From Sabellastarte sp. h YS-2021 (taxonomy: Eukaryota > Annelida > Polychaeta > Sabellida > Sabellidae): a stretch of DNA of 64,000 nucleotides. Positions 4,671 to 61,491 of the stretch are shown one piece after another. The translations under genes were made by a program, and so were the position numbers. Position 1 is the first letter of the stretch; each line of letters begins with the position of its first letter. The stretch lies in contig OZ024939.1 of NCBI GenBank assembly GCA_964017235.1, forward strand, positions 43,688,241-43,752,240, read 5' to 3'. The notes under the pieces were generated by a model. That model was not told the DNA's origin. It worked only from the letters and a program-made list of their open reading frames with translations, and made no database searches.

Positions 4671-5345
4671 TGAGGGTGGGCATGAATAGGTACATATGGG
4701 CGTGAATTGGTCCACCACCACAAGGAAAGATAATTGTGAAGAGGTTTTAATTCTGGTGAACTTGAAAAAAATATTCCAAATAACGAACTTGGGTAGGCGA
4801 TGAAATTGGGTAGCTGGGCTGTATAGTAAATGATCGTTATGTTGATATGCTCATTAAGTCAATCAGTCACCATAAAGAGCTTTATCGCACATAGCAAACA
4901 GATAGACAAACACCCTTTTCATGAATAGATTCTACAAAAATAATCATGCAATGTGTTCCAAGCAGATAAATTTTTATATTTTCTGAAATAAACACTAAAA
5001 TATTACCTAAATACAGGAATAAACTATCCAGTTTATTATAATACAACAAATATAAAATCTGTATGAGCTTTTGTTCGATTAGATATAATTGATCATCTTT
5101 AACAAATATTTCATCTTGTTGGTTCCAATAAAAGTGGTGGCACAACTGCTCAGCTACCCAAGTTCGTCACAATATTGACAATATTTAAACCTATTAGCAA
5201 TTTCTTTGTAGGGTAATACATCAATGTTATAAGCACCTGTTCCGCTTGTTTCTGTATCAATATTGCTTGTCCTTTTCGGTTTTTAAGGCAGGTGACGAAC
5301 ATGGGTAGGCGACGAACTTGGGTAGCTGAGCAGCAGGTGATCGAT
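4671..5345. repeat. Cluster of tandem-word repeats in both orientations
   Basis: At 4675-4712 the word GGGCATGAATAGGTAC is followed by GGGCGTGAATTGGTCC. At about 4784-4820 ACGAACTTGGGTAG is followed by ATGAAATTGGGTAG. At 5146-5163 the inverse CAGCTACCCAAGTTCGTC appears. At about 5296-5330 ACGAACATGGGTAG is followed by ACGAACTTGGGTAG and GCTGAGCAG. The inverted copies at 5143-5163 and 5310-5332 pair well. This looks like one or more damaged non-autonomous elements, but I could not fix ends or target duplications. Confidence 0.45.
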
Positions 5346-5810
5346 TTAATGATCAGTCTTTTTTTTTTATCTTTTGTTTATTTTTCTTTAACAATGTAAC
5401 ATATATACAGGGTACAGGTTACAAAAAACAAATACAATATCAAAAATGTGATCTAGCAGAACAAGAATTTAAGAGAAGATTCATGTAACAACCTATTAAG
5501 GAAACCTTTACATATTCTCATTATTGTCATTATTGTTTCAATTGCAATGCATGAAGCAGTATCACATACAAGAGGTGAGTTACCATTAATATAAATATAT
5601 CGGTATGTTCTATACTTGTATTTGCGGGTTGATCTTACAAATGACTCATAAACTACCATTTAATCATGCAGTGCATTATCTAAATACATAAATCTTGTAT
5701 TAAATATGAGGTCTCTGCCTTTATTTTTGTATATCACCTTTTCTATTGCAATTTTCGATTTTAAAACCTTAATAAAACCAACTAAGCAGGGTTCTGTTGC
5801 CTTTTGTTTA

Positions 5811-6041
5811 CTGCTTCTAGGCATAAGTTGGCCGTGGTCATAAGTTGGCCACGATCATCATATTTTGAAATTTCTATAAATCTAAAGGCCTGTACGCGTA
5901 TCATTATTGAATGGTCTACTATAATAAGATTTATGATAAAGACCACTTTTAAACCCTGTGCAACCACACATTTGTCTGTTAGACACATTTAAATGATTGG
6001 TGGCCAACTTATGACCACAGCCAACTTATGCCTAGAAGCAG
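5811..6041. mobile_element. TA-flanked MITE with long inverted repeats made of a doubled word
   Basis: A 231-bp element with about 41-bp terminal inverted repeats differing at one position, starting CTGCTTCTAGGCATAAG. TA is duplicated at 5809-5810 and 6042-6043, as for Tc1/mariner-like elements. Each inverted repeat contains two tandem copies of CATAAGTTGGCC separated by GTGGT. No coding capacity. Confidence 0.85.
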
Positions 6042-6093
6042 TACATTTACTTATAAAATATTTTGCAATTATTACAGCAAAATTTAACCAGTA

Positions 6094-6321
6094 CACGGGT
6101 GGTCACAATTATGTCCGGGTCATAATTGTGTCCTGTGTTACTAAATGACGGTACTGAGTTTGGGTGTTTGGTCCAATTTTTAAAGTTTCCATAAAATAAA
6201 CTTGATCTCAAAGGGAATAATTTGAATAAAATATTCAAAATTCTGGTTGCAACATTTTAAAAATAAACTCCAATAAAAATCGGACATTATTATGAACCGG
6301 ACACAATTGTGACTACCCGTG
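6094..6321. mobile_element. TA-flanked MITE, related design, different word
   Basis: A 228-bp element starting CACGGGTGGTCACAATTATG and ending with its inverse, flanked by TA at 6092-6093 and 6322-6323. The inverted repeats are about 40 bp and contain two tandem words, CACAATTATGTCC and CATAATTGTGTCC. It lies only 50 bp from the preceding element. No coding capacity. Confidence 0.8.
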
Positions 6322-6331
6322 TAGAACCAAT

Positions 6332-7377
6332 CGGAATCTGGTCAACTCGGCCCAGTTCAAAGTCGGCCCATACAAACTATAAGCCTTATTAAGGTAGTTG
6401 GGTTAAACAAAGTTTCACGTAAATTATTTAACTTTTAGGAACTTTTATGCAACATTTCTATTGATAAAACGAAGTGGCTAACGAACGGGGATCCGGTCAA
6501 TAGAAAGCGTGGCTAACGAACAGGTCCCATTTTATTTAGTTGGTACTAATTGATGAAATTGTCAGTAACAGTTGTTTTCATTGGTTAATTAAATTAATCA
6601 TGGTTGGCTAGATCTTCTATTTGTATATTATTGCAAGGAAACCCACCGATCGTGCCCTCATATTTTCTTCAGTTTGCATATGTACAAGTAACAGCATTTG
6701 ACATTTTTTTTGTAAAATATTGCCAGAAACCAGCATCATGGCCTTATATTTTCTTCACTTCCTGCAAGTTCAACAGTAGGTGCAGTGAGAGTAAAATATC
6801 GGTAGATCATAATGCACTCATACAATTCTCGGATCCAGTACTAGTGTGGCGAAAATTTTTTTTTTTCATTGTAAATTGCCACTATATTTCTCCTTTCAAC
6901 TTATTTTAGCTTTATTTTATTTCATTAAAATCATGACACAACAAAAGACAGTCATACATAATATATGCAATACATCATATTATATTACAGGGGACCTGAT
7001 CGATAGCTAGCGTTTCTAACGAACGGGAACCTGATCAATAGACTCTTGCTTGATAAAATGTTGCAAGGAAACCCCACGGAATTCTGTGACCCTATATTTT
7101 TATGTATAAATCAATATAATTGAATTGTGTAAGTCCACGAAATTTAAATATTAATTTGTCAGCTAAGTACAAGTTTCCAGGTAACATACTTGATCTCCCA
7201 GCAGCATTTCTATAACATATTGTTAGAAAATCGTAAAGAATACTGTGATTTCATATTTTATACATAAATGTGAATATTATTGAGTTATTCTCATGTTCAC
7301 TTTGCAGGGGGCCGACTTTGAAACGGGCTGACTTTAAAATGGGCCGAGTTTGAAGTGGGCTGAGTTGTCCATAAAAC
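6332..7377. mobile_element. 1.05-kb element with tandem-word inverted repeats and 8-bp flanking repeat
   Basis: The left end carries CAACTCGGCCCA and TTCAAAGTCGGCCC (6343-6370). The right end (7309-7371) carries four inverted copies of this word (GGGCCGACTTTGAAA, GGGCTGACTTTAAAA, GGGCCGAGTTTGAAG, GGGCTGAGTTG). The exact 8-bp direct repeat GAACCAAT flanks it at 6324-6331 and 7378-7385. Inside are direct words CTAACGAACGGG and CTAACGAACAGG near 6478-6527 and CTAACGAACGGG near 7015, plus diverged repeats around TTGCAAGGAAACCC (about 6633 and 7065). No transposase frame is visible. Confidence 0.65.
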
Positions 7378-7399
7378 GAACCAATTAATCTGCTTGAAC

Positions 7400-9649: not shown

Positions 9650-10835
9650 TTCTTAAGGCGCTACTGAGGATCTGACAAACCCCTAAAAATGCTGGAAGTG
9701 AAAACCATGAAAGGGTGTTAAAATTTTAACATTAGATAGGAGGACTCACTTTCAACAGCTCTTTTTCATACATGAAATTTCTACGACCACCAATAAAGGA
9801 AAGGGACTGAAAGTAGCAAGGACTAATTTGACCTTGAAGGGAAAGTAGATAATACTCACTTTGCTACTGGTGTCTACCCAAGTTACTGGCCATGTTGTAA
9901 CTATGGAAAAAGTAGCTGAACAACATATTTTAAGAAAATGCTCTAAATGCAATACTTTTCAAATTACAACTGATTTACTTAACTATGAGAATCTGAAAGT
10001 AGCTACGCAATGAGCTACATGTCTACAATTTCACCATGTTATGGCTGACCTAAATGTAGGTGAATACCATATTTACACAAAATTCTCTGATGCAATAGTT
10101 TTCAAGTTACAACTGATTTACTCACTAACCTGAATGTAGCTATTACTTCACTATGCAATGAGCTACAGGTCTGCAACTTCACTATCTTACAGCTGACATA
10201 AAAGTAGAAGAATAACGTATTTAAACAAAATTCTCCAAATGCTATAATTTTCAAATTACAATTGATTCACTCAACAGTGAGAACCTGAAAGTAGCTATTT
10301 GTCAGCAATGTAATGAGCAACAAATCTGCAATTTTACTATCTTATGGCTGACCTAAAAGTAGATGAATAATCTATTTACACAAAATTCTCTAAATGCAAT
10401 AATTTTCAAGTTACAAGTAATTTTACGGTAATTTAATTTTAAGGTACTGAAAAGTCGGAAAGTAGCTATTACTCACTTAGCTATTAGAATAAGTTACCAA
10501 CTTACTCACCATGTTGTAGCTTTGGAAAAAAGTAGCTGAATAACATATGTTAACAAAATGTTCTAAAAATACAATACTGTTCAAGTTATAAGTGATTTAG
10601 TGCAAAATTTCATGAATTCTAATGCATCAAAAGTTATTCTAAAAATTCATAAAAAATAATCAAGAAAGATCCAGGTCTGATACTCAAACAAGAGAATCAA
10701 CTTGTGGCCTTGTACATCTATGCAAGATCACAGACAAATCCCTGCAATAGTTTATGAGAAAATTGTGATCAAGTGTTGAAATTTTCACACTTTGGGTGGG
10801 GTATCTCACTTGTAATGGCTCTGGGGAACAGACAA
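9650..10835. repeat. ~150-bp tandem repeat block with repeated flanks
   Basis: From about 9800 to 10620 there are roughly five diverged units of about 148-155 bp. One marker, a GAGCTACATGTCTACAA-like word, recurs at about 10012, 10160 and 10315. Another marker, CAAGTTACAA followed by CTGATTTAC, also recurs. The flanks repeat directly: a GTGTTAAAATTTTAACA then CTCACTTTCAACAGCTCT-type stretch near 9715-9762 resembles 10773-10822. This is the layout of a non-autonomous element with a tandem core. Bivalve pearl elements are built this way, but I cannot assign it to that family by eye. Confidence 0.5.
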
Positions 10836-17759: not shown

Positions 17760-17779
17760 GTAGGCCAGTCTTTATAATA

Positions 17780-17901
17780 GTAATAAATACCTCATGCTCG
17801 GGCGTTTGTTACAGGATATACGCCCGGCACTCTGGCATTATTTGGAATTTTTGCCGGGCGTATATCCTGTAACAAACGCCCTCACACTCAGTATTTATTA
17901 C
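17780..17901. mobile_element. Palindromic foldback MITE, TA-flanked
   Basis: Two arms of about 50 nt (17778-17829 and 17852-17903) pair as GTAATAAATAC and then GGGCGTTTGTTACAGGATAT with a 22-nt loop; only a ten-base internal segment differs. TA at both outer edges fits a TA duplication. No coding capacity. Confidence 0.75.
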
Positions 17902-18126
17902 TACAGGAATTTTGCAATAATAAGAGAGCAATCCAAATTTGGGCAAGTAGAAATGACTTAATCAACATGAATATGTGGATGGTATTAGTCAGATAATGGG
18001 GGTTTTGGTGTAATACTCTTGTGTCTGAATGTCTACAACATGCCACAGTACATGAGCCAAACCACCGATTAAACCACTATATTTCACTTTGAATTATAGA
18101 CCATTCTCAAGGTTGTGAATTTTGCA

Positions 18127-19766: not shown

Positions 19767-20008
19767 TTTTTTTATTTATTTATTTATTTGGGGTTTTACA
19801 TCGCTTTCAACACTGTTTAGGTCATATCACGATGGGTAGTTGGAAGGGCAGAGGAAACCAGTACATAGAGTTCGCTAGGGTTCTGTACTGTAAACTGCCT
19901 ACCAACGGCAAGCAACTACCAGCTTTCCCACTTGAGGCCGTTCCGGGAATCGAACCCCGGCCTAAGAGGTGGGAGGCGAGAGTGTTACCACTCTGCCACT
20001 GTGGCCCC
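19767..20008 (-). repeat. Young tRNA-derived SINE with exact 14-bp target duplication
   Basis: Read on the minus strand the 242-bp element starts GGGGCCACAGTGGCAGAGTG (A box TGGCAGAGTGGTAACACTC) and has a B box GGGTTCGATTCCC. It continues through a body with ACTGGTTTCCTCTGCC and ends in GATGTAAAACCCC plus an AAAT repeat tail. TGACAATATCTGAA is duplicated exactly at 19753-19766 and 20009-20022. It is close in sequence to the copies at 52018 and 61492. Confidence 0.9.
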
Positions 20009-20088
20009 TGACAATATCTGAAACCCATCAACAAAATATAAGACTGTCAAAAACAATTAAGTTGACAATATCTTAGGCATCTTTTCAG

Positions 20089-20228: not shown

Positions 20229-20720
20229 GTGATATTGACAATGTACGAGAACTTTATAGACATCAAAATCACCCTAAAGCACCTTATCATAACCTCAAGT
20301 TGCATGTAATAGTTTGAGTATCGATAATTTCATTAATTTTTTTCAGATCTTTCATATGATAAACCACTTTCACTATGAAAAAAATAAACAAACTCAAATT
20401 ATAGGAACATGCATTAATTTATAAAGAATCAACTTAAAAATGAGTATTAAAATGACAACTTGTAGAACCATACATATTGACAAAAAAATTACATGAAAAT
20501 GGTGCATAATATTTTGCAATAAGACTAAACCACTATTCTCACTTCATCCTATAATGCAAAATACGATAACAGTGCATTATAAATAAAACAATAATGGGAA
20601 TTCAAGCTTATTACCTCCTTTTTCACAAGAAAGTTTAAAATGGAAATAAACAGACTTTAAATAAGCACATGTAAATGGTAATTTGGATTTAATATCAACT
20701 AGTTTTTCTACAAAATATTC

Positions 20721-21305
20721 ATGCAGTATGAAGCTGATGAGCCTATATGTAAAGAAATATGGTCCAAAAAAATTAATTTTTATATAAATGATGAAATTTG
20801 GCAAAACATCTTTAAAGCTTGTATAAAATCAGTCATTGATAATGACCTTGTCTGGTTTCAATACAAAATCCTGTTTAATATATTGGATACTAATGAGTAT
20901 CTGTACAAAATTAAAATCTCTAATTCCAATCTATGTAGATTATGTGGGGAATGTCCAGAAACAATCTTACACTTATTTGCACAATGTAAAGAAGTACAAG
21001 ATTTGTGGCAGAACTTAAATAGTTGGATCAGAAATAAATTGTCAATACATATTGATTTCCTTGATTCTAGAAAAATACTAGGTTATGAAGATTATGATGC
21101 ACATTTCTGGCCACTAAATTTTATACTTACCAATGTTAGAAATAATATATTTTGGTGTTCCAAATATAATTTTAAAATAAATATATATTTTCTCCAAAAA
21201 AGGTTGGAAAGCAAATTTAAAGAACAAAAAACTTTAGCCATTATAAACCAGACTGAAATAAGATTTAACAAACGATGGGAAGTGTGGCAAAATTTATTTA
21301 CATAG
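20721..21305 (+). pseudogene. 5'-truncated LINE, C-terminal end of ORF2 with zinc knuckle
   Basis: An open frame of 194 codons matches the far C terminus of a non-LTR retrotransposon polyprotein. FQYKILFNILDTNEYLYKIK precedes a CX2CX8HX4C zinc knuckle (CRLCGECPETILHLFAQC), then a Trp-rich tail ending WEVWQNLFT. This layout (the RVT zinc finger after the reverse transcriptase) is known from L1/Tx1-like LINEs. The reverse transcriptase and endonuclease are missing, so it is a dead 5'-truncated insertion. The 3' untranslated part runs to a poly-A near 21527-21550. Confidence 0.75.
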
Positions 21306-21550: not shown

Positions 21551-21581
21551 CTAGTTTTTCTTCTCCAATTACAATAGGAAA

Positions 21582-21717
21582 ACGTCCCGAATGACATATA
21601 CAGAAAAAATATATCACGAATGAAGATAACAATATTATACGAGTGCGTAGCACGAGTATTATATTGTTAATCTTCATGAGTGATATATTTTTTCTGTATA
21701 TGTCTGATGAGGGATGT
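21582..21717. repeat. Large near-perfect palindrome
   Basis: The arm CATATACAGAAAAAATATAT ... GAATGAAGAT ... ACGAGTGC pairs with its inverse around a loop of about 4 nt (GTAG). It is a potential cruciform and a foldback-type element or end. Confidence 0.75.
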
Positions 21718-21722
21718 TTTAC

Positions 21723-22096
21723 TTTTATTATCCACCATTTTGTGCGATTTATGGGTCAAATAATATGAATATTTAATGAGAAAACGTGAACAGACTGTCA
21801 AAAAGAATGAGCAACACTGAATATAAAACTTCAATCTTTACCTTGCAATATCTCAGTCATTTCTGCATGGATATTTATGCAACATACATGAGCGGAAGCG
21901 CTAGAATAACACCTTTCTAATGATATATTATACATATTTTTAAGTTACATACTTTCCGAGATATTGTTGAAAAACCGGAAGTTAATCACACTCAATATCC
22001 ATAGTACCGGGGCGCCGGTGTATACAAAAAAAATACATCCCGGTCTGTATTTCCCCGTATTTAGGGCAAATACGTCGCGTGGTGGATAATAAAATA
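21723..22096. mobile_element. Possible MITE with 16-bp inverted repeats
   Basis: TTTTATTATCCACCA at 21724-21738 is repeated inverted as TGGTGGATAATAAAA at about 22081-22096. It directly abuts the palindrome at 21582-21717, so the two may be one nested structure. No reading frame. Confidence 0.45.
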
Positions 22097-22120
22097 TATA
22101 AAATATCCATCAGAGTTAAA

Positions 22121-22354
22121 GGGGCATCAATGACTTAGTGGTGACATCCGCCTCCCACCTCTAAGGTCTGCGGTTTAAATCCCGGGATCCTATGTGGGAA
22201 AGTAGATAGTTGCTTACTGATGGTCGCCAGTTTACAATAAAGAACCCTGACCAACTCAACTGTATTTCCTGGTTACCTCTGCCAATATAACGACCATTGT
22301 GATATGACCCACTAAGTGTTGAAAGCCTCATAAAAACCCAAATAAACAAATAAA
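22121..22354 (+). repeat. SINE copy, plus strand, moderately diverged
   Basis: The head GGGGCATCAATGACTTAGTG, a B-box-like GCGGTTTAAATCCCG, the body GGGAAAGTAGATAGTTGC and the tail AAAAACCCAAATAAACAAAT follow the family order. Flanks CCATCAGAG and CCATCACAGAG may be a decayed target duplication. Confidence 0.7.
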
Positions 22355-28574: not shown

Positions 28575-29296
28575 CAGGGGCCGGTTTCATGAACAGACTT
28601 AAGCCTTGAGTCAGACTCAAAAGTTGAGACTTTGTCTCAAATTTTGGAAATATTTTGCTGAGTCTGTGAACTCAGACTCAATGCATTTCACAAACAAGCT
28701 CAAATTGAGACCTGGCTCAGTCACAAGCTCAAATTTGAGCCCATGAAAGAGGTGTCTCAAATTTGAGTCCAAGCTTTGATGCCAAAAAACACATACATAA
28801 AGCGATACAATTTGTTCCAAAATGAAATTGATAAATCTTGAAATCTTCTATTTTCATTTTATTTTGTAATTACAGCCACATATTCAATATTTACTAATAA
28901 CAAAAGTCAATAGAATTGACATGCTTTATAGGCTATTATCAAGTGACAGGCCTCAAGGGTGGACTCAAAGCCAGACTCAACCTCAGTTGAGTCTCAATCT
29001 TATGGATCACTTAGAATAATATATTATCATATAATTTCTTTGTATTATGAGTATTAAAGATATTTAAAATGATAATAATCATAAAATATAACTTTTTAAA
29101 CTAAAAATAAGCCCACTAAATGTATGAAATGAGATTAAAAAGTTGAGACCATAACTTGAGACTGGTCTCAGCTGATCCACCCTTTGTGAAATCCATTTGA
29201 GCCAAAAACTCAGCCGAGACAAAAGTCTCAGATTTGAGACCCTGACTCAGCCTTGAGTCTGGCTCAGTTTGAGACTTTTCATGAAACCGGCCCCTG
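28575..29296. mobile_element. 722-bp inverted-repeat element, CAGGGGCCGG ends
   Basis: The ends CAGGGGCCGGTTTCATGAA (28575-28593) and its exact inverse (29278-29296) are 19-bp perfect terminal inverted repeats. The subterminal regions on both sides are filled with words such as GAGTCAGACTCAA, TTGAGACTTTGTCTCAA and CTCAAATTTGAG, many of them self-complementary. I found no clear target duplication and no transposase. The superfamily is not assigned. Confidence 0.75.
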
Positions 29297-30245: not shown

Positions 30246-30382
30246 GTATACCATAAAAATCCATGCTCTACGTAAATTTAGAGCACGAATTCTGGGTTTA
30301 GATCACTCAGGCTACGCCTTCAAGATCTAAACCCAGAATCCATGCTCTAAATTTGTGTAGAGCAGGGATTTTTATTGTATAT
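30246..30382. mobile_element. Foldback MITE with ~58-nt arms
   Basis: The arms 30246-30304 and 30324-30382 pair (ATAAAAATCC, GCTCTAC, AAATTTAGAGCA, TTCTGGGTTTAGATC) with few mismatches around a 19-nt loop. No coding capacity. Confidence 0.75.
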
Positions 30383-44378: not shown

Positions 44379-45240
44379 CTGCATCCCTGGATTCCATCTT
44401 TTGTTTCTCTAAATGTATGAGCTGCATACCTGGATGTCATCTTTTGTTTCTGTAAATGTATGGGCTGCATCCCTGGATGTCATCTTTTGTTTCCATAAAT
44501 GTATGGGCTGCTTGCCATCTTTTGTTTCTCTAAATGTATGGGCTGCATCCCTGGATTCTATCTTTTGTTTCCATATGAGTATGGGCTGCATCCCTGGATG
44601 CCATCTTTTGTTTCCATATATGTATGGGCTGCTTGCCATCTTTTGTTTCTGTAAATGTATGGGCTGTATCCTGGATGTCATCTTTTGTTTCCATATATGA
44701 ATGGGCTGCATCCATGGAGGACATCTTTTGTTTCCATAAATGTATGGGCTGCTTGCCATATTTGTTTCCATATATGTATGGGCTGCTTGCCATCTTTTGT
44801 TTCTGTAAATGTATGGGCTGTATCCTGGATGTCATCTTTTGTTTCCATATATGAATGGGCTGCATCCATGGAGGACATCTTTTGTTTCCATAAATGTATG
44901 GGCTGCTTGCCATATTTGTTTCCATATATGTATGGGCTGCTTGCCATCTTTTGTTTCTGTAAATGTATGGGCTGTATCCTGGATGTCATCTTTTGTTTCC
45001 ATAAATGTATGAGCTACATCCCTGGATGCCATCTTTTGTTTCTGTAAATGTATGGGCTGCATACCTGGATGCCATCTTTTGTTTCCATATATGTATGGGC
45101 TGCTTGCCATATTTGTTTCTGTAAATGTATGAGCTGTATCCCTGGATGTCATCTTTTTTTTCTATAAATGAGCTGCATACATGGATGCCATCTTTTGTTT
45201 CTGTAAATATATGAGCTGCATCCCTGGGTGCCATCTTTTT
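44379..45240. repeat. Minisatellite of ~35-43-bp units with a 154-bp higher-order period
   Basis: About twenty units of the form CATCTTTTGTTTC plus a TAAATGTATGGGCT-type half. Units are 43 bp with a CATCCCTGGATG segment or about 35 bp without it. A four-unit block starting GCTTGCCATCTTTTGTTTCT recurs at 44631, 44785 and 44939, exactly 154 bp apart, so the centre was homogenised by block duplication. CCATATATGTATGG within many units is near-palindromic. Long open frames on both strands come from the lack of stops in the unit. Confidence 0.9.
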
Positions 45241-45670
45241 TCTACTATTTGTTAATACTTTTCACCTTAATCAAAAATAGGATTGTACATTTACCAACAA
45301 CAATATTTCTACACAACAATTATTCCCAGAGGTCAATTAACCAGAAAGGTAAGCATGTGTGACCTTATGCTGATTTAATTTCATCTTGCCACATACTTTA
45401 TTCCAACTTGGGTGTTCACATAATATTCCAGAGCTAAGGTCATATCAGGACAGGCTCTCAGTAATTAGTACGCTCATCAATGAACTGAATTCCGATCCTT
45501 GACCACACAAAACCAAGAGATTAACTACCTTACAGTTCAGAAATTGGTCATAAAGACTTCAATTTCATTAGTTAGTAAGGAAGCTAGCACAAACTGCAGA
45601 AAGATAGGACATGATGGGATTTTTGCAAAACATTGTGACATGGCTAGTGAACAAACCGTGTTCCAGAAAG
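45241..45670. other. AT-rich spacer
   Basis: It holds a possible minus-strand SINE relic near 45430-45520 (TAAGGTCATATCAGGACAGG) and no supported gene. Confidence 0.3.
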
Positions 45671-45677
45671 CACTTAC

Positions 45678-45731
45678 TTCGCCACATCCTGGTATCCCTG
45701 GGGTATCCAGCCCAGTCGGACAATCAGAAAG
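45678..45731 (-). CDS. Candidate 54-nt internal exon, unknown gene
   Basis: Minus-strand acceptor TTGTGTTTTCTAG and donor GCGAA then GTAAGT enclose exactly 18 codons, LSDCPTGLDTPGIPGCGE. Both splice sites are strong and the exon is GC-rich. The Gly/Pro/Cys-rich peptide suggests an extracellular protein; no family is assigned. Confidence 0.4.
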
Positions 45732-45739
45732 CTAGAAAA

Positions 45740-47321
45740 CACAATATGCAAAGGATATATCAGCCAGGATGGGACTTTGCGTGCTGGCAGATAAGTGACA
45801 GCTCTCTGCTCCCATTACTTCAAAGGTAATTCAGTAACCCAGAATAGCACAACATTAAGCTATCACAAAGCAATTAGAACTGTTGATATAAAAGTTTGTA
45901 TTAAGTAATGTGATTGTTTTTGGTCTGCACAAACTTCATCTAAAATAAAATCATAATTTCACCAAAATACAAGGTTTGTCAAAGATAACTTTTCATTAAG
46001 ATGCACACTTGGGTCACTGCATATGTTAATTTAAGAAAATTCATACTAATTTGCATAACACAAGTGCAAATATGCACTTTTTGTTAAATTAGTTTTGAAT
46101 AAGCTAACCTTCATTTGATACCTTTTTACTAAGCAAATACAGTCTCCAGCTCCAAATTATGACTGGCAAATTATTGTGACTCAAACTTATTGTGACTTAA
46201 GAACCTTTAGTTCTTTCATAAACACATTTTCTCTCTGTCAAGATTCTACTTGACGCAGTCTTTAACTGCTCAATAGATATTAGATACTCTTAATATGTCT
46301 GATAATTTTACCATAATTAAGATGTAAGCCTATTCTACTCATAGTTTTCTCCCCTATGGTTAGATGCTCAAATGGACATGGACTTTATCTAGCAATTTGA
46401 TTATCCCTTCCTGGGTTCAGGATTTATACATCAATTTGGTGCCTTGGAAATATGTCACTCGTCCACAACAAGAGGCTGCATCTGTTTTTGCTATATTCTA
46501 CTTACCTTGCCACCTGTAGTATATTTCAGGGGGTGGGGGAGTTATGTATGACTTTCGCACCCACTCATGTATTTATTCTTGTCAGGTGAGAAAGTATGAG
46601 ACTCACAGAGACGGGGGGGCGGCAAGTTATGGAGGAGAGATGTCGGGGAAATAATCCAATTAGCCTGTAGAGTCACTGGATGTGTTTACACACTTACTCA
46701 AACAGCCAATCAGATTAGCCAACACACTGGACACCTCGGAGAGTGATATATGTCCTCTGAGTGGTGAAAAAATGAACAAATATGTAACAGGCCAACAACT
46801 TCAAGGTTACAGAGTAGACATGGCTGGTTTGTATGTATAGCAAAACTATCAGAGGGCTTGCAATTCTGTAAATAGCTGGGGTTTTTTAAATTCTAGCTGT
46901 TGGGTTTTTGTTGATGCAATATTTACTATCTCAGATGTCAGATTTCTTTACTGCAGACATTAAACGCTGTTTTATTGCACGCTTTATGAATCGATTTTTT
47001 CCCCCCACTTTCCCTTTGATTTTACGGTTTGTTTTTTTAAAAAAAATTCTGTTCCTCTCTTAAATTTTGTGAACAAATGATGACATTTTTATGTAGAACT
47101 TATATCTAGTATACTACTAATAAAACATATCTTTACACATTTTCTATTTGTGAAATATATTATTGTCTTGGTTTTAACGACACTGTTTTTTTTTATAAAC
47201 CTATTAATACAGAAAATGAAATCCAATCTGCCAACTGTAAACATATAATAGAGCTTTGTGAACCTCTAAACATACAAATAAAAGCTTCTATGGACAGTTG
47301 ATGTTCAGGAGTAATTTCATC
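45740..47321. other. AT-rich spacer
   Basis: No supported gene. A G-rich stretch lies at about 46532-46545 and another at about 46612-46622. Confidence 0.3.
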
Positions 47322-47461
47322 TTATTCGTAAATGTGAAGGCCCCAAATCCCACCAGTCATTTCCAACTGATTTTTATACAAAAAGCCATCACTGGATTTG
47401 ACAGCATAACAGTGAATGAGTCCTCTGAGTCTCACTGTTGAAGTCAAGTTCAATTGAAATG
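47322..47461 (-). CDS. Candidate terminal coding exon, unknown gene
   Basis: A strong acceptor (ACTAAGTTTATTTGCAG) is followed by 45 codons, FQLNLTSTVRLRGLIHCY then AVKSSDGFLYKNQLEMTG and GIWGLHIYE, ending in TAA at 47322-47324. Entry takes two bases. An alternative shorter frame exists, but this one is longer and varied in composition. No family is recognised. Confidence 0.5.
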
Positions 47462-48260
47462 CTGCAAATAAACTTAGTAAATTATCTACATTTCTGGCAA
47501 ATAACAAAATGGTAGACAACCAAATAATATATCCATTCCATACCCTGGGCACACTGAAATTCAGGCGCTGGAGTCAAGATGAAAAGATGAAACTTTCAAC
47601 ACAGTGCAAGTGGTATCAGCAGTGCTGCCTGTTCTCATGTCTATCTGAGCAGTTGGTAATTAGATTACTATATTGTTATGGTTAAGGATTTTTAACAGTT
47701 TGCCATCAATATACATGTAACAAGCCCATTCACATACAGTAACACTAGCTAGTTATTATATTTTTACAAAAAAAAACTGCATCGCAACTGAGTAAAATTT
47801 TAGCACTGAATCACTATTTGTTGCTTTTGATAATTTTTGCCCATATTTCTTATTAAAAATACTAGCTTTAAATTCTCACTTTGAGCACATTTTTGCGCTA
47901 GTCCCTGCTGAGGGCACCTGACAAATGCAAGGATTTGATTGGCTTAGGGTTTCCAATGAATGGACTAATATACCTTGGAAAATACGTGACTAATATAGAT
48001 GGAATTTAGTCAAGTGGAAACTTAAATGAAAAATATCAATATAATGAACATGATCTTGGAACTTTTCAGCAGCGATACTAGAATTTCTACACAAGAGTGG
48101 CAGACTAAATTAGCAAACAACCAATGAACATGCACCTTACAAAGACTATTTTATGTATCAGACATCCTTACTGATTGAAGTTAGAATTTATATAAGTCCC
48201 AACTTAAGCTATGTGCTGAATTATGGTGAGAAACCATGTCTTGAAACAAAGAAACTCAAA

Positions 48261-48308
48261 ATGGCGTTAAAATTATTCACTGCAGCTGTTTGTTTCAGAC
48301 AAAACCAG
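48261..48308 (+). CDS. Candidate first coding exon, possible targeting peptide
   Basis: The start context CAAAATGG is good. Sixteen codons, MALKLFTAAVCFRQNQ, end exactly at a consensus donor (CAG then GTGAGT), phase 0. The peptide is hydrophobic with basic residues and no acidic ones, like a mitochondrial presequence or a short signal peptide. A TATATAAG word lies about 70 nt upstream (near 48190). The next exon is not identified. Confidence 0.5.
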
Positions 48309-50485
48309 GTGAGTTGGTCATGAATGTTTGTCAGGAAACTACCTGACTACCGAACACTTCCAACTTTCCTTCCAACTTTCCCTCAGTACAAAGGTTTACA
48401 AATTTTACAAATCTGTTTATTGAATTATAATTTCCCTATAACGGAAGCAACAAAAACATATTTATTGCTGATATAACCCTGTAATAATTAGGGTGACAGT
48501 GTGATAATTTTGTTTGAATAACTGAAAGTTAAAAACTCAAAATGGGTAATTCAGTATAAAACAGTAGGAAATTGTGGTATTCATAAAAATATACTTATAA
48601 AATTAAATATTTAAATAAAAGAAATTTAGATAATAATGATTCTACTGTATTTACAAACTCCACTTCTTGTTCAAAGATGGGATTCCAATTTACGAGGGTG
48701 TGCCAGTAGTATACATAAACCACCCCATGAAATTTCATGATGATAGAGGGGTAATACATTTTATCCAGTCTGAGCCATTCCAAAGATTATGTCTTGAACC
48801 TTGAGGCAAGCTGACATCAAAGAAGGGCCAACAACAGACTAGGACAAATCAACTGGAAAAGTGGGCTGGTGGCCCCGGAATATGAAGTTAGTTCTCTTTG
48901 CTTAATGAGAGAGTGATGCACTTTGAAAAGAAATACTCCGCATATCATTGTATTAAGATGTGTCCTCCTGGCATGTAAAACATGGAACTGGTGACTGGAA
49001 CAAAAATTAAAGGTATTTCAATCACTAAGACCTTATGATTCTCAACATAACTGAGGCTTTGCCAACTGCTTAATAGCAATACAAGAAAAGTACTTGTGGA
49101 AAAATAGCATAGTAATAGAAACAATAGAAATAAATAAAGAAATGAAATAAAGAAGTAGATCTGGAACATGAGGCTTAGGTTAAGCAAATCTTAGGAAAAT
49201 TGGATTTCTGAACTTCAGTTATCTAACAGGCAAGTGAAAATGGGTGAAGTGTGAAATCGGATTATTATGGAAGGAAAAAAAAATCAGGCATCCTTTAACG
49301 AATGAGATGTGCTGTACTACAGTAGTGTTGATGTTAGAGGGACCACTCAAATGTCACCCAGTGAATAGGGGAAACTTTCCTGAACAAGACTGTACTAGAA
49401 ACTAAAACCCAGGTCAAGGTGAACAGTTGAACATTTCTACAAATAAAAAAATGGCCAAATTCTTGTCCCGAGGGCACATTAGTGACAATTTAAGTGCAAA
49501 AATGTATAATTCTGTTGCAGTAATGTTTCAACATTTTGTTTCCCATTCTTTAATTTTATGTGATGGTGTCAGTGACAAAACTAATATGGCGTTGTGATTA
49601 AATTTTTGCCTTTTATGTGATAGCTAACTGCCAGAGTAGACTTATACATTTCTAGCTACACTAATATGCAGGTACACTAGTATGCATAAAAACGGAACTT
49701 TTCACCAGTCAACAAAGCCTAGTTACATAATGCACTGCCCTCAATGTGGTGTTAAGTTTTCTTTGTTGTTGTCTACATGGATAATAAACAATACCATAAT
49801 ACAAGATATTTTTACACATCTTCTTGGCACTAAAGATAGATGCAAAAATAAACAGTAAAACCTGTTTATAATCTAAGCAAAATAATAGCTAAAAATTTGT
49901 TTTCTTCGGGATTACAACTGCTTTTACCATTTAACTAATTATATGTAACACACATTTCTTATGTAATATAATAAAAGGTAACACCTTACAAAGCCCTTCA
50001 CCTCCCCACCCCCTTACTAAAATAAGCAAAAAAAAAAAAAATGCACACACAATAAGAATACTGAACTGACCAATAACTGTAAATATTGAAGTGTGTCAAG
50101 AAACTCAGGGCATACAGTGACAAAAACAACCCAAAAGTCAATGGCCAATTTTCATATGCTAAAATAACTCCTGCCATAGGATTTTTCGAAGACACTTTTT
50201 TCCAAGTATGTCGGTCATGAAATAAGATCAAATGACCACACAAATTAACCTTGAAAAGATAACTCTGTTATTGCGGGGGCTTTAATCAGTTTGATCATAC
50301 TCAGTGACTTGCACACAGTGCATGTCATGAGCCTGATTCTCAAACCCACAACCACTGATGTGACAGTTGAGTGACTGCATGACTGACTGTACATGTTAAC
50401 AGCCATTGATCAAATTTCTTAGTGCAATGCAAACCTGCATTATTTTAATTATTAGCACTGTTCATATACTTTGAATAGATACCAT
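48309..50485. other. AT-rich, presumed intron
   Basis: No supported exon. A poly-A run lies near 50029-50041 and a tRNA-like SINE relic may lie near 50280-50400 on the minus strand (B box GTGGGTTTGAGAATC). Confidence 0.3.
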
Positions 50486-51074
50486 CCAGTAAACATAGCA
50501 AATGTTTTTAAACGTTTAGTAAATGTATAAACGTTTTTAAAACCAAATATAAACCTAAATATTGACAATTATTCAATATTATGGGTTTATAAACGTTTCA
50601 GCAACATTAGTTTGGTTTATAAACGTTTAATAAATGTTTTTAAACGTTTACAAAGAGTGAAGAATATCTTAACCTCGCTTTCATTCTGGATGATGATATC
50701 AGCACAGCCATTTTGAGAGAAACTGGAGAAATATTTCTGTTACTATATCTTGCTGTATCACTGTTGTTTGAAGCCATCATTAAATTTAAGTGGAGATATA
50801 AAAGTACAATATATCATAGAATGCACTGTACAAGGTTAAATTGATGTAAACAGGGAAATTATTCATAAAATGAAATTTGTTTACATTCTCCCTTGAATCA
50901 TACTGGATACTTGAACGTTTATAAACATTTATGTATAAAAGTTTATAAATGTTTATGTTTAAATGTTTATAAATGTTTATAGGCAAACATTTAGGAGCCC
51001 ATCATTTTAAACCTTAAATAAACCGTTCATAGTTAGGTCTATAAACGTTTATAAACATTTGTAATGTTTACTGG
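50486..51074. mobile_element. Inverted-repeat element filled with TAAACGTTTATAAAC words
   Basis: CCAGTAAACATAGCAAATG on the left pairs with CATTTGTAATGTTTACTGG on the right. The subterminal 150 bp on each side carry many copies of TTAAACGTTTA, TATAAACGTTT and TTTATAAATGTTTA, which are self-complementary. No clear target duplication and no coding capacity. Confidence 0.65.
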
Positions 51075-52017
51075 GCAGGCATAGTGATTCTAAAATACAA
51101 CTTGCTATTACAGTATGTAATCACTGAGGACACAGGGAGATCATTTGCATGACAACCTATGCCCCCCTCACCCACTTTCACTTCAAACAGGAAATGAACA
51201 GGACTAAGTGGCTTCAATGAATCTCCCCAAATAGAAACACTTACGGACACTTTAACTCAACACGGCATTACAACAGCAAGTCCTTGACTTTATTAGTTCC
51301 AAGAATAAAGCATAAATTTGTGCTGAAAAGTCTTAATGTCTTTCCTTTCCCACAAGAGGCATTCTTCAGGTTCATTAAAGGCATGTGTTGGTTTTTTTCC
51401 AGATATCTCAAGTGTAGTTTAAATGAAATTTTGAACAGGCTGACAGTATTCCCCATTATAAGTGTCCTTGCTTGTCCTAATTAAAATCATAATTAAACTG
51501 ACAGGGTATTTGAAGAGCATTAAATATTTGAAATATAACATAGTTCGAATTACTGACTCTGTCAATTAAATGCCTGGTGAGAAACTCCTGGATAGCATTT
51601 TTCCAATTTTTTAAAATTGTCTCATTTTAAATTGGTGCATATAATCTCCAAATTAAGTTTTGAGGGAATATTCAAGTCAAAATGTTTTTGTTCGGAGCAA
51701 ATTTTTCACAAAAGACACTGAACTAGAGGCAGAGAATGAGATTTACTCTGTGAATTTAATCAGCTGTTCATTCTCAACTTTGTGGCAAACTTCATTACAT
51801 TTCTTCAGGATTTCAGTTTCTTCTATTTATACCAGTGATGATGAACTGGCAAATTGCCACCTTTAGCAAGGGATTCAGTAAGTCACATTCAAGTTGTTTT
51901 TCTAAAAATGGGTAGAAATCTCCTCTCAAAAATATCTGAGAATCAAAATGGGCTAGAATGCTTAATGTTACCTATACAATGAAATGGAAGGTAACACAGT
52001 ACTTTGGACTTTCTTGA

Positions 52018-52247
52018 TTTATTTATTTGGAGTTTTACGTCGCTTTCAACACTGTACAGGTCATATCATGACGGGTAGTTGGAAGGGCAAAGGAAACCAG
52101 TACATACAGTTCGTTAGGGTTCTGTACTGTAAACTGCCGACCAACGGCAAGCAACTACCAGCTTTCCCACTTGAGGCTATGACAAGGATCGAACCCCGGC
52201 CTCAGAGGTGGGAGGCGAGAGTGTTACCACTCTGCCACCGTGGCCCC
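52018..52247 (-). repeat. Young tRNA-derived SINE with exact 14-bp target duplication
   Basis: Same family and orientation as 19767-20008. TTGGACTTTCTTGA is duplicated exactly at 52004-52017 and 52248-52261. A box TGGCAGAGTGGTAACACTC, B box GGGTTCGATCC, tail GACGTAAAACTCC plus AAAT repeats on the minus strand. Confidence 0.9.
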
Positions 52248-52261
52248 TTGGACTTTCTTGA

Positions 52262-53324
52262 AGAAGTTACTGTAAATTACCCTAATTTGAAATGCAAAGC
52301 TGACACAAATTTTTGGATTGCAATTTCACCGTTATGGCAACTGGTTCCAATGAACTTTCAAAGTAATTAACACATGAGCAACAGTTTGGAATAATATATT
52401 GCTTCCACATTTAAAAAGTATCAAAATGTACATATAAATTTTCCATAAATGACACCTTATTGAATGTAGCAAGAACATGTTTATCCCACATGTTCATAAA
52501 ATGCTTACTCCAGTGGTACAGAAATGATTTATTTCAGAATTCTTTAACACTGAAACACACATTATGGTGAGACCTTTGCAGCAATTTGTACTCTCCAAGT
52601 GCATGGTTTAACTAAATTGACATCAGGAATCATATTCTAGCTCAAACAGGCTGTCTGAATTTTGGGACAAGCTGTCTTGCAGATAAATACTTAATGGTTG
52701 TGGAAAAAGTTATTGTCACTTAGATGAAATATGCAGATGAAATATCAATGAAACTTGTCCCCATACTGAATATTGCCGGAAATTTAGGGTAGCCAGTTTA
52801 TGGAGAGTATAACCAGGAGACTAATTTAAATCTGTCTGGTGTTGGTTGACTTGAGAGTTCTGTGGAATCTTAATAACAATAACAAATCTCTGGAAATTCT
52901 CTGACATTGATGAGAAAATATGCCAGACACTTTATACCCTGACAACAACTGCACTTATTAGGTCAGCCAGGTCACTGTTGTCTGGACAGAGCGGGATATT
53001 GTTTCATTCTATAAATATTGGTCGTCTGACTAATGCAAAGTTTTATGGCATTATTTTTATGCAGGGAAATTACACTATAAACTGATCCTTATGAGTGGGC
53101 GATAAAAAGAATATCAATGATGGGCATGTTGTCATCAGCAATATAGAATGACACTTAGAAGCTCTAAAAACTTAATTAATCTGCAGCTCAAGCCTCACAA
53201 CTTGTCTCTCCCAATAATTTTTATTATGGTTTCAATTGTATCTTACTTCAATATGATTTGAATAGTTTGAGCCTGGTGGTGTTTTTAACAAACACTATGT
53301 AAATCATACTGTCATGACATAGTT
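52262..53324. other. AT-rich spacer, nothing recognised
   Basis: No supported exon, repeat or element. Confidence 0.3.
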
Positions 53325-53455
53325 GTATGGGTTGCGGAAAGCAGTGGACACTAATTAGTCAAGACCTATACTGGCATTCAGAAAGCAACTTGCACCTTAA
53401 GACCAAGGCTGGGACTTGAAAGCACTACCTCGGAGACAGGAACCAGGTATTTTAC
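53325..53455 (-). repeat. Old SINE copy
   Basis: On the minus strand an A-box-like ACTAGGTAAAATACC, a B-box-like GCTTTCAAGTCCCAGC and a body ending CCACTGCTTTCCGCAACCC and GTCATGACA follow the family order. Diverged. Confidence 0.4.
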
Positions 53456-53479
53456 CTAGTATACTACCAAGCCAAGTTG

Positions 53480-53633
53480 AAGGTCCTCAGTGGCCTAGTG
53501 GTTAGCAAGTTTGGCATCTAATCATAGGCTGTCACCTCTGTGGGTTCGAGTCCCACAAGTGGCAATTCTGAGGACCTGTCCCAATATGACCCTGGCTGTT
53601 GAACGGGACGTAAAACCCCAACTTTGACCTTTG
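53480..53633 (+). repeat. Young SINE of a second family with exact 14-bp target duplication
   Basis: The 154-bp element starts AAGGTCCTCAGTGGCCTAGT (A box TGGCCTAGTGGTTAGCAAG) and has a B box GGGTTCGAGTCCC. It ends in GGGACGTAAAACCCCAACTT and a TTTGACC tail. ACCAAGCCAAGTTG is duplicated exactly at 53466-53479 and 53634-53647. The tRNA head differs from the 19767/52018/61492 family, but the GACGTAAAACCCC end is shared. Confidence 0.9.
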
Positions 53634-54159
53634 ACCAAGCCAAGTTGGAACTGGATCTTGGGTCCTTTCTCACAGAAGAAAATGAAGAATATTATCACAG
53701 TGTAAAATTCGGTAGTTTTAGGAGTTTCATAAATTTTAAGGTTACCCCCTACTTTTACAGTTAAAATGTGTAGTTTGTAAATGTTGTTCTTTGAATTATT
53801 TTTTCTTTGTAGTTTGTGTTCATTTCATATTGCTTGTAACTTTATGTCTTTCATGATGTAATACCTATTGTAAAACATCTGTCATTATGTCCTGTATGTC
53901 CCTTTTGATTTTGTATCCTCCTGTTATCTGTCATCTGGAATCAGAGATATCCAGTTGTTGTATAAGGCCTATGGTATCTGCAGGAGGTTATTATTGATGA
54001 GTTTATTTGAAGTTGTGGGAATGACTGTGTGATTGTGTAATGATGTAATTTATGTTCTTGTGATGTCTTGCTTTATAAATGGTTATTGTTCTTTTCTGTC
54101 ATGTCATTGGTCACTCATTTTATTATCTAGTGTTTTGTATTGTCTCATGTTTCTGTAAT

Positions 54160-54420
54160 ATGATTGGCCAATCCATGAATTATTGTATTTTGCATTATTA
54201 TATTTTACTATAAATTGTGGGGTGAATCTCAAACAAGGTCAGAATTGAATTTCAGAGAAGGAAAATGAGAAGTGAAATTGAGACTGAGAAATCTAAATGA
54301 GAATTGAAACTGAGAACAAACTAGAGATAATAGAAATGAGAATTGAATAAAGAAATTAAATAGAGATTGAGACAGTTAAAATATGACAATAAATTAGAGT
54401 AACTTGTGAAAATTGGAAAG
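54160..54420 (+). promoter_or_regulatory. CCAAT/TATA-like words followed by purine-rich strand
   Basis: TGATTGGCCAATCC, then TACTATAAATTGTGGGGTGA, then a GA-rich stretch of loose repeats (GAAATTGAGACTGAGAA and similar) to about 54375. The order recalls a promoter or a solo LTR, but I could not find matching LTR ends or a target duplication. Confidence 0.25.
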
Positions 54421-54654
54421 GCAGTTATGATAAATAAATAATAGACAGTTTGATATTTGTGATTTTAACATTACATTGTATTACATCTGGATTATATGAA
54501 CAGACATTAATCTGCAGGGTGATTAAGTTTTATATGATATTTGATTGTGTTTATGTTATTTGTTTATAATTGTGTTACACCCCAAAAAGTAAAGGAACAA
54601 TAAAAAGATATAAAGAGGAAATAAATGAACTTTTTTTAGTGACTTAAATCACAC

Positions 54655-54817
54655 CTAAAATTAACAGTGTGATAATATTCGCAATGACCACTGAAGGGAA
54701 TTTCAATTCTAACTTCTTGAAAGAAGTATTTGCCATTGGATCTTGTTGCTGCATTGGAGTAAAAAGGCAACAAACCACTGTGGAAATGATTCATGAGTAA
54801 CTGCAGATTAAAGTGCC
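54655..54817 (-). CDS. Candidate internal exon, unknown gene
   Basis: Minus-strand acceptor ATAGTTTGTCAG and donor TTTTAG then GTGTGA enclose an open frame, HFNLQLLMNHFHSGLLPFY, SNAATRSNGKYFFQEVRIEI and PFSGHCEYYHTVNF. Entry takes two bases and exit is phase 2. Composition is varied and coding-like. No family is recognised. Confidence 0.45.
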
Positions 54818-54819
54818 CT

Positions 54820-56080
54820 GACAAACTATAGTGCTGTGTATTTCTCCATCAGAAAGCTGCCCATTCGGATATGAACTATGATGGATATTAACTAACATGA
54901 AAGCAATGCTTAAACCAGAAATATTTCAAACATTTCAGATCACATACTGCAGGCCTGATATTCAAGGTCTACCCCTTTTCCACCTGCCCTGCCAACTCCC
55001 ATGTTAACTCAGTCAATTGATTAGCAGAAAGCCCCAGGAGCTGTCCAAATGGTCCTATTGTGTGTCCCGCTGACCACTTGTAATGGTTTTTATTACTCCC
55101 GGGGACCTTGTGGGGTCCAGTTCCATCTACACTGCCATGACACCAGTATATACAGATGCCTTAACACCAGTGATATTTACAGCCAAAAATACTCCAGTAA
55201 TCACAGACTGCTCAACAGACAAAATGGGTTTTTGGTACACACTAAAACTCAAACTTGCACAAGTTTATTAACTCATTAAGTAATTTTATATATTGACTCT
55301 ATGACAGTGAAATAAATTGCTTACTTTTAGCAAATGGTACACATCAATATGTTTATACATTTAAAAAATATTGCTGATAAGCAAAATTGTTTATGACTGT
55401 GATGGAAATATTATCTGTAGATTTGGTGAGAAGTACAATTTTCTTTCATTACGGTCAGAAGAGGGAGACCATCTCGATCAAGTTAAATCAGTGCAGTGTG
55501 TTGTGGACTAAATACATCTTTCACTGATAATTCACAAAGTTGCATGAGGATAATGTAACCAATTAGATATTCCTGGGTATTTTTGTTTCTGAAATGGCAA
55601 ATATTATCAAAGTAAAAAAATTCCTTAATTATAACATAAACAATATTATTCTGTGACGAAAGTTGATTTTCTCAGAAAAATAAAGATCCCTCTCAGACAT
55701 TGAGAGGCCTATGAGTCACTTACACACCTCTTTACTTACTCTTACTTATACAAACTTTACAACAAATATAACTCAATAATAAATTTGTAACAATAAATAT
55801 TATATATTTTTATCATATACACATGTGATGATAATAATAATAATACAGTTGCAACAAGTAGTTCTTTTTGTATTTCAATATATCCTCCTGGTTTCTGTGA
55901 AGGTTTTTGTTAAATATCATTAGGATGCCAATGATTCCTCAGACAAAATTCCATTTAAAGATGTTTGATTGTAGCCAAGTAATTTATCTCAATGAGTAAA
56001 CCACAACCTTAGTAAAAATACGATATGTCTATTTTAGAATGTGTTTTGGGAAGTTGCACATTTTTTATCATCATTTTCCC
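54820..56080. other. AT-rich spacer
   Basis: A small ATAATAATAAT tract lies near 55828-55842. Two overlapping plus-strand open frames at 55049-55279 have no splice support. Confidence 0.3.
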
Positions 56081-57858: not shown

Positions 57859-58015
57859 TAAACATTTAAACATTTCCAGACATGTATATAACAAACCTAT
57901 TTGTCAAATTGCATGCAAATAAGTGAAGTGGTTTTTATGTTATCATCCAAACAAGCAGACATATTAAAAACATGTTTTGGTCCTTCAGTTTAGTAGAACT
58001 ATCCCAACATCATGT

Positions 58016-58093
58016 TCAGAAATTTTTTCCAGGGCTACTGCATACACATGCTACATCTGAAGAGAATCCACCAAGTAGTTCCTCAGCTATAGC
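58016..58093 (-). CDS. Candidate terminal exon of a minus-strand gene
   Basis: The acceptor CTCCACATTTTCTTCAG is excellent. It is followed by 25 codons, AIAEELLGGFSSDVACVCSS then PGKNF, and TGA at 58016-58018, entry phase 0. It chains in phase with the exon at 58422-58472. The 23-bp satellite starts about 160 bp further downstream. Confidence 0.55.
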   Translation of the reverse strand, partial: AIAEELLGGFSSDVACVCSSPGKNF

Positions 58094-58421
58094 CTGAAGA
58101 AAATGTGGAGTCAGCAACCCCTTCCTTGTGAATTTTCTCCTGTATACAAACAACCTGTTTCTAAATCCCTACAGTGTTTTTCTTTCATTTACTTGTTCTG
58201 TTACAGTTAAAATGCCGTCACCAATCTCTTAAAATGGCACAGCGGGTCATCCTATTTTATCAAAGAAACTGCAAAGATGGGACATACTTCACACAAAATT
58301 TACACTGATTTGGGTCACAAGTTAAAACTGCAAACAATTCTATTAAATACTTCTGTTGTGTTATGTTATGGCTTCTGTGAAACTGACTTCAGCAAGGTAT
58401 TTGTTTATGAAGGTTTATCAC

Positions 58422-58472
58422 TTCTCCAAACAGTTCAGATCTCACTTTCTGGATTAACATGGCACGCACCAA
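58422..58472 (-). CDS. Candidate internal exon of the same gene
   Basis: A strong acceptor (ATTTTCTTGCCTCAG) and a GAA then GTGATA donor enclose exactly 17 codons, LVRAMLIQKVRSELFGE, a likely amphipathic helix. Phase 0 on both sides joins it to AIAEELLGG. Another frame from the same acceptor (GACHVNPE to a GTGAGA donor) would chain with the upstream exon's alternative reading. Confidence 0.5.
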
Positions 58473-58902: not shown

Positions 58903-58941
58903 CTGCTTCAGAACACATTCTCTCCCACAACATCCCATCAC
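58903..58941 (-). CDS. Candidate 39-nt internal exon of the same gene
   Basis: Acceptor GACCTTTGTGCAG and donor CAG then GTATTT. Read with two leading bases it gives DGMLWERMCSEA and accepts the phase-1 exit of the exon at 60652-60750 (A plus GT, Ser). Read in phase 0 it gives VMGCCGRECVLKQ and chains with the 58422 exon instead. Only one can be right. Confidence 0.4.
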
Positions 58942-60750: not shown

Positions 60751-60759
60751 CTCTATTTG

Positions 60760-61478: not shown

Positions 61479-61491
61479 TTTATGACCATGA

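Follow-up and report, generated by a model that had tools for sequence, protein, structure and literature searches.

We describe here a group of inverted-repeat elements with short words in tandem at their ends, found in a 64,000-nucleotide stretch of contig OZ024939.1 from Sabellastarte sp. h YS-2021 (hereafter, the window). Four of them follow one another in series between 5.1 and 7.4 kb, in the order E4, E1, E2 and E3, and a fifth element of similar build, E5, lies far from the other four (59208-60090), outside the stretch on which a first-pass annotation had focused. With moderate confidence, we interpret this group as a set of non-autonomous DNA transposons of the cut-and-paste kind, which probably represent two superfamilies and in which the tandem words of 15-17 bp would be sites for the transposase. 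The most likely assignment of E3 and E5 is to Mutator-like elements (Phantom/foldback, Tm1- or Muta-like), and that of E1, E2 and perhaps E4 is to miniature elements of the Tc1/mariner type that target TA, with two words per end at a 17-bp spacing. The inverted arms, the tandem words, the target duplications and the outer motifs common to E3 and E5 are observed features of this DNA, which is AT-rich and animal-like, with a CpG observed/expected ratio of 0.31 over the whole window. Together, the four neighboring elements occupy about 2.2 kb.

To assess the arrangement in tandem, we took 22 arms or stretches of 50, 60 or 72 nt, scored how well each matched itself at lags 12-22, and compared each with 4000 dinucleotide-preserving shuffles. 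Nine of the ten arms of E1-E5 were tandem at P<=0.008, the exception being the left arm of E4 (P=0.60), and so was the stretch from 4671 (P=0.0002). The best lag was 17 in E1, E2, the right arm of E4 and a solitary E4-type end described below, 16 in E3 and 15 in E5. None of the seven comparison stretches (both arms of the elements E6 and E7, and one arm of each of three palindromes) gave P<0.02. Across the window, we counted 14 tandem clusters at lags 11-22, minisatellites included, compared with 2 to 5 in five first-order Markov sequences.

Ends and target sites of the elements

E1 and E2 have the following features:

5809-6043, no strand assigned: E1, a non-autonomous inverted-repeat element of 235 bp including a TA at each end (5809-5810 and 6042-6043)
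5822-5833 and 5839-5850, + strand: left doubled word of E1, CATAAGTTGGCC, spacing 17 (P=0.0002)
6002-6013 and 6019-6030, - strand: right doubled word of E1, the second copy with one mismatch, spacing 17 (P=0.0002)
6092-6323, no strand assigned: E2, 232 bp including a TA at each end (6092-6093 and 6322-6323)
6104-6116 and 6121-6133, + strand: left doubled word of E2, spacing 17 (P=0.001)
6282-6294 and 6299-6311, - strand: right doubled word of E2, spacing 17 (P=0.008)

The arms of E1 are 44 bp long and 98% complementary, those of E2 are 42 bp long and 88% complementary, and the TA target duplication is present at both ends of each element. No direct repeat of at least 7 bp was found in the flanks of E1, E2, E4, E6 or E7; the flanks of E1 contain one 6-bp direct repeat, out of register.

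Longer duplications flank E3 and E5:

6332-7377, no strand assigned: E3, 1046 bp between 8-bp target duplications
6324-6331, + strand: left target site duplication of E3, GAACCAAT, exact over 8 bp
7378-7385, + strand: right target site duplication of E3, GAACCAAT, exact over 8 bp
6332-6338, + strand: left outer motif of E3, CGGAATC, outside the inverted repeat
7372-7377, + strand: right outer motif of E3, TAAAAC, outside the inverted repeat
6344-6369, + strand: left words of E3, about 2 copies (1.9 by Tandem Repeats Finder, TRF), spacing 16 (P=0.0012)
7309-7371, - strand: right words of E3, 3 copies and, at the terminus, part of a further one (TRF count 3.2), spacing 16 (P=0.0002)
6448-7065, no strand assigned: imperfect foldback internal to E3 with CTAACGAAC direct repeats (6448-6538 against 6981-7065, 66%, weak)
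59208-60090, no strand assigned: E5, 883 bp between 8-bp target duplications, with the tips of the inverted repeat at 59214 and 60084
59200-59207, + strand: left target site duplication of E5, GTTGATAC, exact over 8 bp
60091-60098, + strand: right target site duplication of E5, GTTGATAC, exact over 8 bp
59208-59213, + strand: left outer motif of E5, GGGGAT, outside the inverted repeat
60085-60090, + strand: right outer motif of E5, TAAATC, outside the inverted repeat
59214-59258, + strand: left words of E5, three 15-bp copies of the CATAAAAAACCCCAC type (P=0.0002)
60041-60084, - strand: right words of E5, three 15-bp copies (P=0.0002)

The inverted arms of E3 (6339-6371 and 7339-7371) are 33 bp long and 88% complementary, and those of E5 extend over 110-120 bp at 82-83%. 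Additional related words are found on the left side of E5, at 59275-59288 and 59305-59318, and GTTGATAC occurs in the window only at this element. Exact 8-mers bracket two of the seven elements E1-E7, namely E3 and E5 (two of ten after adding three more inverted repeats), whereas a shared stretch of at least 8 occurred in 0.7% of 200,000 random flank pairs. The gap between duplication and inverted repeat is 7 and 6 bp in E3 and 6 and 6 bp in E5. Since the 8-bp duplications thus lie 6-7 bp beyond the inverted repeat, each of the two elements carries short, non-inverted outer motifs. Comparing the outer hexamers of E3 with those of E5 (left CGGAAT/GGGGAT; right, read inwards, GTTTTA/GATTTA), 9 of 12 positions agree (P=0.002 against random hexamers), while within one element the left and right hexamers share 0 of 6 positions in E3 and 1 of 6 in E5.

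The left duplication of E3, starting at 6324, abuts the right TA of E2 (6322-6323) with zero bases in between. The direct repeats inside E3 (6478-6504/7016-7042 and 6487-6524/6990-7027) are also part of the internal foldback. We rejected the idea that the CTAACGAAC cluster forms a terminal array of its own, because it is internal and direct and its two clusters show no tandem arrangement at lags 12-22 (P=0.99 and 1.0). E5 also contains an internal duplication (59594-59673 against 59716-59795, 86%).

E4 and the region upstream of it comprise three features:

5146-5333, no strand assigned: E4, 188 bp, with 23-bp arms that are 100% complementary
4783-4822, + strand: solitary E4-type right end, with words at 4783-4796 and 4800-4813, spacing 17 (P=0.0007)
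4677-4714, + strand: tandem pair TGGGCATGAATAGGTACA / TGGGCGTGAATTGGTCCA, spacing (lag) 20 (P=0.0002)

The left arm of E4 holds the single word 5154-5167, and the right arm holds two, at 5295-5308 and 5312-5325, with a spacing of 17 (P=0.0002). The solitary end is 89% identical to the right end of E4 over 37 nt and is directly followed by a TA. Its sole inverted match is the left arm of E4, with the tips facing each other; no E4-type word was found upstream of it, and its other end is missing. For the tandem pair at 4677-4714 we saw no inverted partner.

Altogether, the doubled-word inverted arms that the first-pass annotation had reported in E1, E2 and E3 are real, both arms of each element being more tandem than their shuffles (P from 0.0002 to 0.008), and its assignment of a TA target to E1 and E2 and of an 8-bp repeat to E3 was correct. 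The words that it quoted are present as well, except that ACGAACAGGTCC (6516-6527) is internal to E3, within the direct repeats, and not terminal. What it had called a damaged cluster does bear such words, and resolves into E4, the solitary E4-type end and the tandem pair.

Likeness among the elements

To compare the words, we aligned locally the first copies of seven of them in both orientations, and one of the 21 pairs gave P<0.05 (E1-E3, 0.026). In forward orientation only, the values were 0.006 for E1-E3, 0.025 for E1-E4 and 0.050 for E1-E2. Joint tests gave P=0.007 for E1, E2, E3 and E5 in left-arm orientation and P=0.03 for all seven words in free orientation, figures that overstate the evidence because words and phases were picked after inspection and first copies alone were used. 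The ends were compared in an end-anchored manner over 28 pairs with two statistics, anchored and ungapped, and 1500 shuffles. None of the 1500 shuffles was as good as the match between E4 and the solitary end. E1-E2 gave P=0.001 and E1-E4 gave 0.002 ungapped and 0.028 anchored, likenesses that are not secure given that 28 pairs and two statistics were tried; E4-E3 gave 0.030 (anchored) and E2-E4 gave 0.63. Among ten pairs of interiors, the best was E2-E3 (P=0.017), and none were alike after correction. Between whole elements (15 pairs), the lowest values included E4 against the solitary stretch (0.003), E2 against the solitary stretch (0.003) and E2-E3 (0.010).

The annotation had proposed that a single transposase lineage, its words diversifying under a fixed doubled layout, accounts for all of these ends, which would derive E1-E5 from one ancestor. 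The similar word length in all the tandems speaks for it, as do the joint word tests and the anchored ends of E1-E2, E1-E4 and E4-E3, with the inflation just noted for the joint values. There are, however, two classes of target duplication, the asymmetric outer motifs are confined to E3 and E5, 20 of the 21 word pairs lie above P=0.05 in both orientations, and the interiors are unlike after correction for the ten pairs. We consider a common lineage for all five very improbable; the loose template that the annotation saw in the words is slightly above chance and marginal at that, and the two target-site classes vindicate the doubt about single ancestry that it had voiced itself. A single family comprising E1-E5 was rejected on the same grounds (TA versus 8-bp duplications, unlike interiors, marginal word likeness).

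A narrower proposal keeps the diversifying lineage for the TA class alone (E1, E2 and E4) and sets E3 and E5 apart as Mutator-like. Its appeal is that a spacing of 17 bp holds without exception among the doubled ends of E1, E2 and E4 and in the solitary end, against 16 in E3 and 15 in E5, and that the anchored ends of E1 and E2 are alike at P=0.001. Under a strict correction for 28 pairs and two statistics neither the E1-E2 nor the E1-E4 value survives, E2 and E4 are not alike (P=0.63), the interiors differ, and E4 lacks TA duplications. We regard this lineage as a possibility with somewhat less than an even chance, and on the sequence comparisons the ends of E1, E2 and E4 may have a common origin. 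As for E3 and E5, their shared layout, duplication length and outer motifs point to one superfamily, and not to one family.

Other repeats in the window

E6 (50486-51074, 589 bp) has 33-bp arms (91%) and dense, near-palindromic words of the AAACGTTTATAAA type on both sides. E7 (28575-29296) has CAGGGGCCGGTTTCATGAA ends, which we take to be hAT-like, and CTCAAA/GAGAC words that recur within its arms. We found no target duplication for either. The comparison set also included three short palindromic elements, at 17778-17903, 21573-21726 and 30247-30381, the last with TATA at both ends.

A dispersed 236-bp repeat is present in three direct copies that are 91-97% identical (19774-20009, 52014-52249 and 61492-61727) and one inverted copy (22119-22354, 72-76%); it opens with a TTTATTTATTT stretch and GTTTTACRTCGC, and by its appearance resembles a short interspersed nuclear element. 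Two minisatellites occupy 56370-57858 (units of 23, 46 and 69 bp) and 44379-45239 (43-bp units), the former with open frames of 442-456 amino acids in all three forward frames. Degenerate tandem repeats are found at 9908-10599, with a period of about 155 bp, and at 1228-2067, where ~500-bp copies (71%) overlap with an offset of about 340 bp. Finally, the open stretch at 20703-21305 is likely a remnant of a non-LTR (long terminal repeat) retrotransposon, judging from a zf-RVT score of 27.1 bits against a Pfam cut-off of 27.5.

Known systems and rival readings

The published systems below are compared as they appear in excerpts of the papers cited. The closest counterpart of E3 and E5 is Tm1 from root-knot nematodes (Meloidogyne), a foldback-like element with a Mutator/Phantom transposase, whose duplications measure 8-10 bp in 45 of 53 cases. 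Between its duplication and its inverted repeat stand asymmetric motifs of 7 bp, followed by 1-9 units of a ~14-bp motif, in numbers unequal between the ends (PMC3169594). E3 and E5 resemble it in duplication length, asymmetric outer motifs, tandem units of variable number and the presence of non-autonomous members that look like miniature inverted-repeat transposable elements. Their words are longer (16 bp in E3 and 15 in E5, against ~14), and the likeness is one of layout. In Aedes aegypti, all 14 families of Mutator-like elements (MULEs) have duplications of 8-9 bp, and 10 of the 12 long-arm families carry subterminal tandem repeats of 9-15 bp; the words of the Muta elements measure 12 bp, with spacers of 3-4 bp between them, or 15 bp, and their number varies in non-autonomous derivatives (PMC5225508). 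Muta1 and Muta5 share with E3 and E5 the 8-9-bp duplications, a terminal motif followed by words and a variable word number, but their arms have 9 copies (145-151 bp) and their terminal motif belongs to the inverted repeat, whereas E3 has about 2 and 3-4 words and E5 has three plus scattered ones.

Regarding E1 and E2, the ends of Tc1/mariner elements contain direct repeats, two or three in number, which are putative sites of the transposase and of which Bari1 has all three bound (PMC4120734), and all four direct-repeat sites are needed in Sleeping Beauty (PMC7827188). E1 and E2 are like these elements in their direct repeats within inverted ends and their TA target. Set against two or three direct repeats per end, E1 and E2 have two words per arm, and E4 has two in one arm and one in the other. 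Their tight spacing is reminiscent of Drosophila pogo, in which each end carries a close pair of 12-bp sites. Galileo, FB and FARE foldback elements also have composite ends with internal tandem repeats; those of Galileo are ~140 bp long and, in a single copy, ~1.7 kb away from the tips, in contrast to the terminal 15-17-bp words described here. We found no match for the exact doubled-word patterns in viral and prokaryote genome contigs, collections that are unlikely to contain such DNA, so that this is no evidence of absence; the matches of a literature text search with six of the words were unrelated, judging by title.

According to these precedents, a transposase provided in trans would recognise the repeated words through its DNA-binding domain. 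Each end would be loaded with several subunits, making the pairing of ends cooperative, and the catalytic domain would cut outside the word array. E3 and E5 would follow a plan of an 8-bp duplication, a short asymmetric outer motif and a variable number of tandem words. Such a binding role is suggested by where the words are placed, at both ends, in inverted register and adjacent to the target duplication of elements in which no gene can be recognised. It also fits the annotation's description of them as binding words; its diversified single lineage does not gain support. We infer that transposase binding, mobilisation in trans, the two superfamily assignments and convergence of the layout are, taken together, the most likely account.

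Several observations weigh against the interpretation as transposons of two superfamilies. No transposase was found by Pfam among 72 read-through frames covering 1-43,539, 45,235-55,224 and 57,855-62,854 (about 58.5 of the 64 kb), at cut-offs of E<=0.1 in one scan and E<=0.01 in the rest; the sub-cut-off matches were one zf-RVT, just short, and three weaker ones. This absence is expected if the copies are non-autonomous. Each element is present in a single copy in the window, so mobility is read from ends and duplications. E4 has perfect 23-bp arms yet no target duplication, TA included, its flanks being AA and CA. GAACCAAT occurs four times in the window and is therefore not rare, and the 33-bp arms of E3, accompanied by the weak internal foldback, are short for a MULE, in which inverted repeats above 100 bp are typical (those of E5 span 110-120 bp). 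Apart from layout, duplication length and outer hexamers, E3 and E5 are unlike (words P=0.81, anchored inverted repeats P=1.0, interiors P=0.16). The terminal motif of Muta1 is within the inverted repeat, while the outer motifs of E3 and E5 are asymmetric; the 16-bp words of E3 exceed the 9-15 bp of the Muta families; and the repeats of Sleeping Beauty are found in ~220-bp ends, compared with tandem words within ~44 bp in E1 and E2. Weaker tandems were also detected in comparison elements, in the left arms of E6 (P=0.025) and E7 (P=0.026), and a shifted look at the control palindrome 30247-30381 (30267-30316) revealed a lag-20 tandem (P=0.0042).

One could argue that the words are minisatellite-like products of slippage within ordinary inverted repeats, with no binding role. 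Word numbers are unequal between the ends of E3 (1.9 and 3.2 by TRF) and of E4 (one and two), large minisatellites exist elsewhere in the window, and the descriptions of Merlin and Galileo give tandem repeats without a binding role. Yet E1, E2, E3 and E5 have the tandem at both ends in inverted register, the size class is the same in otherwise unlike elements, and Tm1 and Muta place such words likewise as a family trait, all of which makes slippage an unlikely explanation to us.

It is less unlikely, although we still doubt it, that the superfamily of E3 and E5 is not Mutator but a different one in which duplications are long (hAT, P, Merlin, Zisupton or Dada). hAT elements have CAG-type terminal bases directly at the 8-bp duplication; the termini of E3 and E5, read inwards, are CGGAAT, GGGGAT, GTTTTA and GATTTA, and hAT was rejected for lack of CAG. 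Duplications of 8 bp are nonetheless reported for Merlin, Zisupton and hAT, and of 7-8 bp for Galileo (P superfamily), and the inverted repeats of Dada are sub-terminal, at a fixed distance from the duplication. On the other hand, Merlin has a conserved terminal GG, absent from both ends of E3 and present in E5 on the left only. Dada duplications are of 6-7 bp and located in small RNA genes, and an Rfam search of the whole window gave zero matches at the gathering score. Among the descriptions compared, the composite of asymmetric motif and tandem words is given for Tm1. Within the excerpts, PMC9297572, PMC7325037 and PMC12730594 leave the superfamily of E3 and E5 unsettled.

Returning to transposons of two superfamilies, elements of the foldback-like kind differ in their transposases and are not necessarily related (PMC3169594), which favors a reading of convergence. 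The two target-site classes occur next to each other here with ends of similar build, in keeping with a convergence on multi-site ends. The tandem-word layout is thus probably convergent between the classes, and the elements are probably ordinary in kind, further DNA transposons with multi-site ends in layouts already described in other animals. A bolder idea, to which we give little credence, is that tandem-word ends are common to several unrelated lineages here and that in the TA class the words drift fast while the geometry (two words, 17-bp spacing, similar distance to the tip) stays fixed. If true, transposase and site would co-diversify under a constant synaptic architecture, and these elements would offer a natural series for the evolution of end recognition. 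In practical terms, an 8-bp duplication 6-7 bp beyond the inverted repeat is a useful boundary mark, given that taking the inverted repeat as the end would misplace the termini. The Tm1-like composite end, consisting of duplication, asymmetric motif and tandem words, may tentatively be extended to another animal-like genome.

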